Positions 2,437-6,081 of a stretch of 64,000 bases of DNA are shown one piece after another. Numbering within the stretch: the first letter of the stretch is position 1; each line of letters opens with the position of its first letter. Below the pieces are notes generated by a model, which searched no databases, had not been told where the DNA came from, and saw only the letters and a program-made list of their open reading frames with translations. The DNA comes from Candidatus Latescibacterota bacterium (lineage in GTDB: Bacteria > JAAXHH01): assembly GCA_022822725.1 (NCBI GenBank), contig JAJEAN010000007.1, forward strand, positions 1,871,045 to 1,935,044, written 5' to 3'. The position numbers and the translations under genes were made by a program.

Positions 2437-3015
2437 TTACTGCCCCGAGATCATCGCCAGGATCTCTACCAGGCTATCGGTTGACGGCCGGTCGAAGGGG
2501 TCCGATCCCACGTACTTGAACCTGAGGATGCCTTCCTTGTCGATGATAAAGGCAGTGGGTACGACTTCCGTTCCCTTGTCGGTCTCTTTCTGGATCTTGA
2601 ACTTGGTCGGTATGGCCCGGTCCGGATCGGCGAGAACACGAAAGGAAAGATCCTCCCGCGTCACTTTCGACTTGGCGACGAAATCCTGTGTCTGTTCCAG
2701 GTCTTCAGGATTGATGAAGAGTAGTTCGGTGTCGAGTTCTGCGATGCGTTCGTAATCGGATTGCAACTGCCCCAGTTGCCGTAAGCAAAGGGGTCACCAG
2801 TATCCGATCCAGCCGCGGTCGACGACCACCAGCAGGTTCCTGCTGCCCTTGTAATCGGCGAAGTTGACGGTCTCGCCGTTCACGTCCTGCAGGCTGAACT
2901 CCGGTGCGGCCTCGCCCAGTCTCGGCGCCAGGTTCCGGGGTTGCGCGTCGGCGAACTCCGTCACCAGGCCGACCAGGGCCAGGGCGAAGCACCACCGCGC
3001 CAGTGCATGTATCAT
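2437..3015 (-). CDS. Candidate selenoprotein: exported redoxin (AhpC/TSA, Prx-like) with UxxC active site
   Basis: ATG at 3013-3015 follows a strong GGAGGA site. Residues 1-24 form a signal peptide (cut near FADA-QP). A redoxin domain follows, with APEFSLQDVNGETVNFADYKG and then GYW-TGA-PLC-LRQLGQLQ. The TGA (2794-2796, codon 74) stands where Prx-like enzymes have the peroxidatic or redox Cys of WCPxC. The frame continues intact for 118 codons to LAMISGQ, including the cis-Pro motif VVPTAFIIDKEG. A SECIS-like hairpin follows the TGA (2763-2779). Reading TGA as selenocysteine gives a complete 192-residue protein with U74-x-x-C77. Prx-like UxxC selenoproteins are known from marine bacteria. The alternative is a nonsense mutation of the Cys codon. 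A conventional gene caller would split it into two ORFs. Confidence 0.8.
2763..2796 (-). promoter_or_regulatory. Candidate bacterial SECIS element downstream of in-frame TGA
   Basis: On the mRNA, the UGA (2796-2794) is followed after 21 nucleotides by an apical GGG loop (2772-2770). A perfect 7-bp stem closes it: GCAACUG (2779-2773) with CAGUUGC (2769-2763). The short G-starting loop and the UGA-to-loop distance agree with the published bacterial SECIS model (a G among the first two loop bases, spacing in the high teens to thirties). A competing hairpin UUGC-UUACG-GCAA lies closer to the UGA. Confidence 0.65.
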
Positions 3016-3185
3016 GGTCTTCCTCCTCGTTACAGAAGTCGTCCTGCTCATTCCGGCTTCAGTGCAATTCGCTTGCGTTTTGGTCCCGTTAATATAACCT
3101 ACCCCGACACGAATGTTAACTTCAAAATAACTGTTGTCCGCAACGATTTCATGTGCCCATAACGATTTCAAGGAGCCACTTCCCT

Positions 3186-3977
3186 ATGAAGCCAGGCATC
3201 ACGCAACTCTGTCTCAGCCGCCAGGATCTCGAAGCGGACCTTTCGAAGGCCCGAAACCTGGGCTACGAAGCCATCGAACTGGTATTTTCCGATGAAGGAT
3301 CGCCGAATTTGGACGCCTCGACCTCGGAGATCGCGTCGGTCGGGGACGCCTGCCGGGACCACGGACTCGAGCTGTGTTCCATGATCGCCATCCGCCGGGA
3401 CGCCGGTTCCCTGTTGTCGCCCTCCGCGGAGGAGCGGGCGAAGCGGGTGGCCATTCTGCGCCGGGGCTTAGAAATCGCCGAGATCCTGGGTGTGGACGCC
3501 CTCCTCCTGCATCCCGGTGCGCTCGATCCCAAAAGCTCGTACGGCACGACCTGGGACAACTTCCGCGACGCGTTGCGCGACCTCGCGCCCGAAGCGGAAC
3601 GCCGCGGCACCCGGATCGGCATCGAAAACGTGTGGAACCAGTTCATGCTAAGCCCCCGGGAAGCGCGGCAACTCGTCGACGAGGTTGGTTCACCCGCTGT
3701 TGGTATCTACCTGGATACGGCCAACATGATCCTTTACGGCTATCCGGACATGTGGATCAGGGAGCTGGGCCGCCGGATCTTCAAGGTGCACGTGAAGGAT
3801 TTTCGGCGTGGGGAAGGCGCCTGGGTCCAGTTGATGGACGGCGACACGGACTGGCCGGCGGTCATGGCCGAGTTGCGCGCCATCGGTTTCGACGGCGCCC
3901 TGGTCAGCGAGGTCGGGGGAGACGACGACTCCATGAGGGAAACCGCCGAGCGCATCCGGCGGATCATCGCCCTGTAG
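3186..3977 (+). CDS. Sugar phosphate isomerase/epimerase (AP endonuclease 2 TIM barrel)
   Basis: 263 residues from the ATG at 3186, chosen because AAGGAGCC lies ten bases upstream and because MKPGITQLCLS aligns with the first barrel strand. The metal and catalytic residues of the xylose-isomerase-like TIM barrel are visible: LLLHPGALD (His), IGIENVWNQF (Glu), GIYLDTANM (Asp), KVHVKDF (His-x-Lys-Asp) and SEVGGDD (Glu). Such enzymes isomerise or epimerise sugars or cyclitols. The exact substrate is unknown. It is transcribed away from the redoxin gene, so their promoters share 3016-3185. Confidence 0.85.
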   Translation: MKPGITQLCLSRQDLEADLSKARNLGYEAIELVFSDEGSPNLDASTSEIASVGDACRDHGLELCSMIAIRRDAGSLLSPSAEERAKRVAILRRGLEIAEILGVDALLLHPGALDPKSSYGTTWDNFRDALRDLAPEAERRGTRIGIENVWNQFMLSPREARQLVDEVGSPAVGIYLDTANMILYGYPDMWIRELGRRIFKVHVKDFRRGEGAWVQLMDGDTDWPAVMAELRAIGFDGALVSEVGGDDDSMRETAERIRRIIAL

Positions 3978-4890: not shown

Positions 4891-6081
4891 CGCCGCCCGG
4901 GGATAGCGGCGGCCATTGAGTTGCTTGCCGATGAAAGTTGACCGTACGCCGTAGTGGTAAGCCAACAGCATCAGGCCGGTAGCCGCGGCAACGACCAGCG
5001 TAAGCTTGGCCAGGCCCGGCAACGGAAGGCTGTAGAGGGCTAGCGGCAGCAGCATGGTCACGGGCACCTGGGCAAGATAGAAAAAGTAGGACGCATCCGC
5101 CATGTAGCGCCAGCGCGGGCTTGGCCTGTTCATGTAGCGCAGGAACACGCCTACCAATCCGTAGACCATCATCCACATGGAGAGCGAAAGGAAGACAACC
5201 GCCCCCAGGTGATATTCCCCCGAGGACCCGGTGCACCCCATCGTGAGGTCAACCTCGCACCCTGTATCGACGAAGTAGCGGTGAACGAAAAAACAGGGGA
5301 CTGCGCCGGCGAGCATGAACCATGCCGGACCTGTGAACTTCTTCAGGACTTCTTTCCGGTAGAAGAGAAGCCAACCGAATCCGAACAGCAGACCATAGAG
5401 CGCCAGCAGGCGGGGGGCCGGGATGAGGTTGCCATGGTAATCAATCGTCCAGGACTGCATCTGGTAAAGCGCCATGCCCCCCATCAGGATCGCCGCTATC
5501 AGTCCTCCGCCGCGCAAGTGGCGCGCAAAAAGGTCCAGGATGCGTTTCCTGACCGCCGGGGGTATACGCCGGGCGAGCACCAGCGCGCCGCCCGCAGCCA
5601 GGCTCAGGATAAGCAGATAATAGAGGAACCAGAGGTGCATGAGGATGTAGTCGAGCATGCGGGGCGCGGAAGCCATATCGCTATAGTGAATCGCCGGCGG
5701 CACGGCGCTGAACGGGGTGGCCACCCATAGAATGAACGCCATCAAGGCTGCCACCACCGGCCAGGCGACGAGCAAAGTGACGCCCAGCCGGCTCCAACGG
5801 TGCCTGATAAACGCCGGGATTCCGCGCGTCTCGATCAGATAGGCCGAGAAGAACCCGGCTATCAGAAAGAAGACCGGCAACTGGAACACACGAATAAACA
5901 CGATGAACCAGTGGGCAAGGACGACGATCTCGGCGTCTTTATATGGCCAGGCGTCGATCATTGAGGGTTCGTAAGTCATCGATGCGTGGCGTACTATCCC
6001 AAGCATAATCATCACCACGCGCAACCGGTCCAGCGCATAATAACGCTCAACGACGGCCTCGGATCGACTAACGGGAACCAT
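4885..6081 (-). CDS. Acyltransferase 3 family membrane protein (OpgC-like)
   Basis: 398 residues with about ten hydrophobic segments. The N-terminal RYYALDRLRVVMIMLGIVRHAS carries the conserved Arg and His of acyltransferase-3 enzymes, followed by FQLPVFFLIAGFFSAYL, typical of the OpgC/MdoC branch. Such proteins move acyl or succinyl groups onto exported glycans or lipids from the cytoplasmic membrane. The start overlaps the 3' end of the P450 fusion gene by 14 bases on the same strand, so the two are very likely co-transcribed and may act on the same product. The substrate is not predictable. Confidence 0.88.
   Translation of the reverse strand: MVPVSRSEAVVERYYALDRLRVVMIMLGIVRHASMTYEPSMIDAWPYKDAEIVVLAHWFIVFIRVFQLPVFFLIAGFFSAYLIETRGIPAFIRHRWSRLGVTLLVAWPVVAALMAFILWVATPFSAVPPAIHYSDMASAPRMLDYILMHLWFLYYLLILSLAAGGALVLARRIPPAVRKRILDLFARHLRGGGLIAAILMGGMALYQMQSWTIDYHGNLIPAPRLLALYGLLFGFGWLLFYRKEVLKKFTGPAWFMLAGAVPCFFVHRYFVDTGCEVDLTMGCTGSSGEYHLGAVVFLSLSMWMMVYGLVGVFLRYMNRPSPRWRYMADASYFFYLAQVPVTMLLPLALYSLPLPGLAKLTLVVAAATGLMLLAYHYGVRSTFIGKQLNGRRYPRAAI

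Follow-up and report, generated by a model that had tools for sequence, protein, structure and literature searches.

Introduction

The closest described relatives of the gene reported here are the Prx-like thiol:disulfide oxidoreductase selenoproteins (PF00578, UxxC), known as "Prx-like" from the Sargasso Sea and as "Prx-like 1" from GOS (PMC1088965, PMC2398784, PMC13188914). They combine the fold of peroxiredoxins with an active site of the thioredoxin type (PMC1088965). The gene lies in the window, the 64,000 nucleotide stretch of Candidatus Latescibacterota DNA that was analysed, and its product is of this already known kind, the Prx-like UxxC selenoproteins. Both have in common the PF00578 fold, a UxxC motif together with peroxiredoxin homology, an in-frame UGA with a bSECIS element and a predicted redox function. 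In contrast to the described proteins, those with the motif GYWUPLC have a signal-peptide-like start, no Cys form of them was found and they are only approximately 30-35% identical to the next UxxC relatives (Dehalococcoidia, Tissierellales, Poribacteria). Judged from their sequences, they constitute a divergent new subfamily in Latescibacterota, with selenocysteine (Sec) in every member seen.

Three further groups are related. The TxxU peroxiredoxin selenoprotein and the BCP/PrxQ peroxiredoxins share the fold and the Pfam family, but in the protein described here Sec takes the place of the Thr, three residues nearer to the N-terminus, and the catalytic Arg is absent. Exported CxxC thiol:disulfide oxidoreductases of the ResA/TlpA type resemble it in their exported look, a CxxC-equivalent motif, the cis-Pro position and sequence similarity to ResA; here, however, Sec replaces the first Cys, the best structural matches are peroxiredoxins and the ResA model scores below its cut-off. 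The top NCBIfam match is the SelL-related redox protein NF040769, with 62.7 bits against a curated cut-off of 120, and the protein is thus not a member of that family. An earlier report of Sec machinery together with a target gene for Latescibacterota was not found in the open-access literature searched; here, a complete machinery and a well-supported target gene are documented.

Results and Discussion

The redoxin frame is interrupted by a single TGA

The gene is encoded on the minus strand (2437-3015), starts with ATG at 3013-3015, ends with TAA at 2437-2439 and codes for 192 residues if the TGA at 2794-2796, the only in-frame stop ahead of the TAA, is read as residue 74. The surrounding translation is RGWIGYW-U-PLCLRQL. 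When the TGA is read through, the Pfam model AhpC-TSA matches residues 34-166 with 86.8 bits (gathering score 26), and the Redoxin profile (71.2 bits) likewise spans the TGA. The frame, the coordinates and the motif are exactly as originally predicted from the DNA alone. The predicted identity of the TGA as the first position of the active-site motif also agrees with the alignment, in which it falls on the redox Cys of the homologues with homology on both sides, the hallmark of a selenoprotein gene.

The strong ribosome binding site that had been claimed is present as GAGGAGGA (3021-3028, minus strand), with the core GGAGG 6 nt before the ATG. Residues 1-25 (2941-3015, minus strand; MIHALARWCFALALVGLVTEFADA-Q) resemble a signal peptide with an AxA-Q site. 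This resemblance, which had been predicted as well, is by eye only, and the protein may accordingly be exported. Upstream, a sigma-70-like promoter (TTAACA-17-TATATT, 3091-3119, minus strand) is present as a consensus match only (one found, 0.2 expected), and a weak terminator-like hairpin with a T-run follows the gene at 2356-2371 on the same strand (one found, 0.9 expected). Domain matches identify the neighbours, both on the plus strand, as an APH-type phosphotransferase (1328-2377) and a xylose-isomerase-like TIM barrel (3153-3977); redox genes were not found among the neighbours. The opposite orientation of the genes on both sides, together with the promoter-like and the weak terminator-like sites, suggests that the gene is probably transcribed alone.

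The TGA is conserved in all orthologues

Altogether, 14 orthologues were identified. The genomes covered by the two orthologue searches overlap, and 14 is therefore the count of distinct orthologues. Eleven come from further genomes of the genus (90-93% identity) and three (L044, L045 and L046) are 45-50% identical at the protein level, one from another genus of the family and two from other families of the order. The genomes are labelled Candidatus Latescibacterota, some of the MAGs Gemmatimonadetes or Zixiibacteriota. The Sec codon is TGA in 14 of 14, and Cys or Ser in none. The search of the phylum did not yield a Cys form either, and in a scan of named genomes the peptide RGW[IV]GYWC, back-translated with Cys codons only, was found in no confirmed relative; the orthologues in that scan came via a second peptide and all carry TGA. 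Relatives were not found in viral contigs, and among the plasmid records listed there were only distant homologues with about 31% identity or less. Prx-like UxxC selenoproteins had been associated with marine bacteria in the original prediction, which holds in part: one orthologue MAG is labelled "Offshore_80m" and another groundwater, so that the group is not exclusively marine.

One nucleotide separates the Cys codons from TGA, and the TGA sits at the Cys position of a CxxC family, as would be expected for a pseudogene or for an assembly or sequencing error that turned TGC or TGT into TGA. Conservation of the TGA across four genera already refutes this reading, and purifying selection after the TGA equals that before it: within the genus, dN/dS is 0.11 for residues 26-73 and 0.10 after residue 85. 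Decay or error is thus extremely improbable, in line with the original argument against random decay, and a Cys codon at 2794-2796, which would have contradicted the prediction, occurs in none of the related genomes. Constraint on the 118 residues that follow the TGA equals that on the preceding ones, and any reading other than a functional full-length product would be uneconomical.

The genome encodes a complete selenocysteine machinery

The assembly that contains the window (3.8 Mb, nine contigs, 97.8% complete) was searched with profiles, and selA (487 bits, cut-off 268), selB (322 bits, cut-off 242) and selD (263 bits, cut-off 125) were found. The selB reading frame codes for 726 residues with EF-Tu GTPase, SelB beta-barrel and winged-helix domains. 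Located just 3′ of selB and in the same orientation is a tRNA-Sec with the anticodon TCA (UCA), which scores 70.6 bits against a cut-off of 47. Absence of these four genes would have spoken against the predicted selenoprotein; all four are present.

SelD is encoded as an 805 amino acid fusion, in which a Cys-type SelD is joined to a domain that resembles pyridine-nucleotide disulfide oxidoreductases (L064:1639-4056, minus strand; G000:C9, about 294138-296555). Its SelD active site has the Cys form, GCGAK. Ndh-SelD fusions of such type have been described in marine metagenomes (PMC2398784). Among the matches listed for two fragmented relatives (G009, 87% complete; G015, 85% complete in 1170 contigs), there was no selB above the cut-off and no clear tRNA-Sec, the sole match to the tRNA-Sec model in G009 being weak (47.5 bits). 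In a third relative (G012), selB is located at a contig edge and tRNA-Sec was not found above the cut-off.

Some lineages read TGA as Trp, and the codon before the TGA is TGG, so TGA could be a general sense codon in this organism or be subject to non-specific read-through at this site. Against this, an internal TGA occurs in just one of the genome's 13 AhpC-TSA matches, namely the Sec redoxin, and the large frames of selA, selB and formate dehydrogenase alpha (FdhA) contain no in-frame TGA. Several orthologues (L039-L041) even use TGA as their own terminal stop. Since the site is aligned with Cys in the homologues and the genome has a dedicated tRNA-Sec and SelB, there is hardly any chance that TGA has a general sense meaning here. 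The recoding machinery in the genome and an arrangement that is conserved across the genus show that the original finding was right: the gene almost certainly encodes a selenoprotein, presumably an exported one, in which Sec would be inserted at codon 74 via SelB, Sec-tRNA and a hairpin.

A near-invariant bSECIS hairpin follows the UGA

Published criteria for bSECIS elements are a loop of 3-9 nt, a stem of 4-16 bp, a G in the first two loop positions, a spacing of 16-37 nt and an MFE of −7.5 or lower (PMC13188914). The region 2760-2800 of the minus strand, where such an element had been anticipated, contains a hairpin that agrees with every one of them: GCAACUG-GGG-CAGUUGC (2763-2779, minus strand; triloop 2770-2772) has 7 bp, an energy of −8.8 kcal/mol and a 3 nt loop with G first, which starts 21 nt after the UGA. 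The hairpin comprises nucleotides 18-34 if the U of the UGA is taken as nucleotide 1.

The 11 genus members are identical in codons 75-85, the stretch that includes the hairpin, and dS is 0 over these codons vs. 0.28 and 0.39 outside. Within the genus, 77 of the 150 degenerate codons with invariant amino acid vary synonymously in the whole gene; that none of the eleven hairpin codons is among them has a chance of 0.0002 (hypergeometric). In more distant orthologues the hairpin of L044 has a C-G closing pair for G-C, a two-sided change, and that of L046 has the loop GCU, in which G is still first. The column-shuffle control for covariation is weak (62/500), with only one covarying pair, because the stem hardly varies. 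The 50 nt fold starting at the UGA is unexceptional compared to shuffled sequences (z −1.06). MFE folds that include the UGA favour a rival CCCC/GGGG pairing (−12.3 kcal/mol), in the window sequence as well as in the genus, and the conserved hairpin emerges once the first 11 nt are omitted. A ribosome positioned at the UGA would be expected to open the rival pairing. SelB, carrying Sec-tRNA(UCA) and docked on the hairpin, would make the ribosome incorporate Sec at codon 74.

A thioredoxin-type active site in a peroxiredoxin-like fold

The AlphaFold model, in which Sec was modelled as Cys, has a peroxiredoxin-like fold (pLDDT 80.9); residues 3-26 are of low confidence and the N-terminal segment is unfolded. 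The nearest PDB structures are peroxiredoxins of the BCP/PrxQ and other types. The Cys77 codon (2785-2787, minus strand), for the putative resolving residue of the UxxC motif, corresponds to an invariant alignment column. The downstream cis-Pro that had been predicted proved to be Pro153 (2557-2559, minus strand); it occupies the site of the cis-Pro in thioredoxin-type redoxins, and Arg is found there in true peroxiredoxins. In this column, all but one of the UxxC/CxxC homologues with data have Pro and nearly all TxxC/TxxU homologues have Arg; the exceptions listed are L047_m2 (UxxC, Met), L101 (TxxC, Pro) and L057 (SxxC, Pro). True peroxiredoxins are recognized by PxxxTxxC and the catalytic Arg, in place of which this protein has UxxC and Pro; the thioredoxin-like UxxC, not TxxU, is characteristic of Prx-like UxxC selenoproteins. 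The Thr and Arg of peroxiredoxins are thus missing and the thioredoxin pair of UxxC and Pro is present, and the protein, thioredoxin-like in its active site and peroxiredoxin-like in its fold, is Prx-like and not a peroxiredoxin. Alignment with UxxC and CxxC homologues, with Sec in the Cys column, therefore bears out the prediction and refines it.

The protein is most likely an extracytoplasmic thiol:disulfide oxidoreductase, as judged from these motifs. In the mature protein Sec74 would immediately precede the first active-site helix, Cys77 would lie one turn further along and Pro153 would take the cis-Pro position. The geometry of UxxC and Pro suggests that an extracytoplasmic substrate, either a disulfide or a peroxide, is attacked by the Sec74 selenolate, that Cys77 might resolve the intermediate as an Se-S bond and that a partner protein might then reduce this bond. 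Selenolates are reactive toward peroxides, the closest fold is that of BCP/PrxQ peroxiredoxins and Cys77 is aligned with the peroxidatic Cys of TPxC peroxiredoxins, all of which would suit an enzyme that acts mainly on peroxide. Sec itself, however, replaces the catalytic Thr and occupies the nucleophile position of thioredoxins, and Pro replaces the catalytic Arg, which makes a main role as peroxidase rather unlikely. The use of Sec in an extracytoplasmic oxidoreductase, as originally proposed, is supported by the machinery, the conserved TGA and the hairpin; Sec insertion, export and activity are inferred from the sequence.

It is possible, though less likely than not, that this is a Sec-obligate exported Prx-like subfamily characteristic of Latescibacterota, in which Sec has not been swapped for Cys across the order. 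If true, the lack of such an exchange over the depth of the order points to dependence on selenium chemistry in a reaction outside the cytoplasm. The question of why Sec is retained can be addressed cleanly in a natural example like this one, a family that has Sec only and a hairpin that hardly varies. Since gene callers split such genes, the proteomes of this candidate phylum are likely to be mis-annotated at redox active sites.

Further selenocysteine candidates in relatives

Three Poribacteria sequences (L078, L079 and L081; matches at 5001-5477) contain redoxin-like proteins with TYUPVC in the Sec74 alignment column. They are apparently longer, multi-domain proteins and might be a separate Sec family. 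A UxxS variant of the Prx-like family, RGFGUPYS, is encoded at L061:1501-2007 (minus strand; G050:C17), without Cys at the usual resolving position. Prx-like paralogues with an in-frame TGA were found in related genera, with the motifs SWUPFC (L131:1501-1908, plus strand; G013:C26) and SWUGFC (L136:1501-1950, plus strand; G015:C600). One relative within the genus of the window organism has a second candidate for a selenoprotein, a peroxiredoxin that looks exported and has the TxxU motif FTPGU (L137:1501-1965, minus strand; G011:C217).
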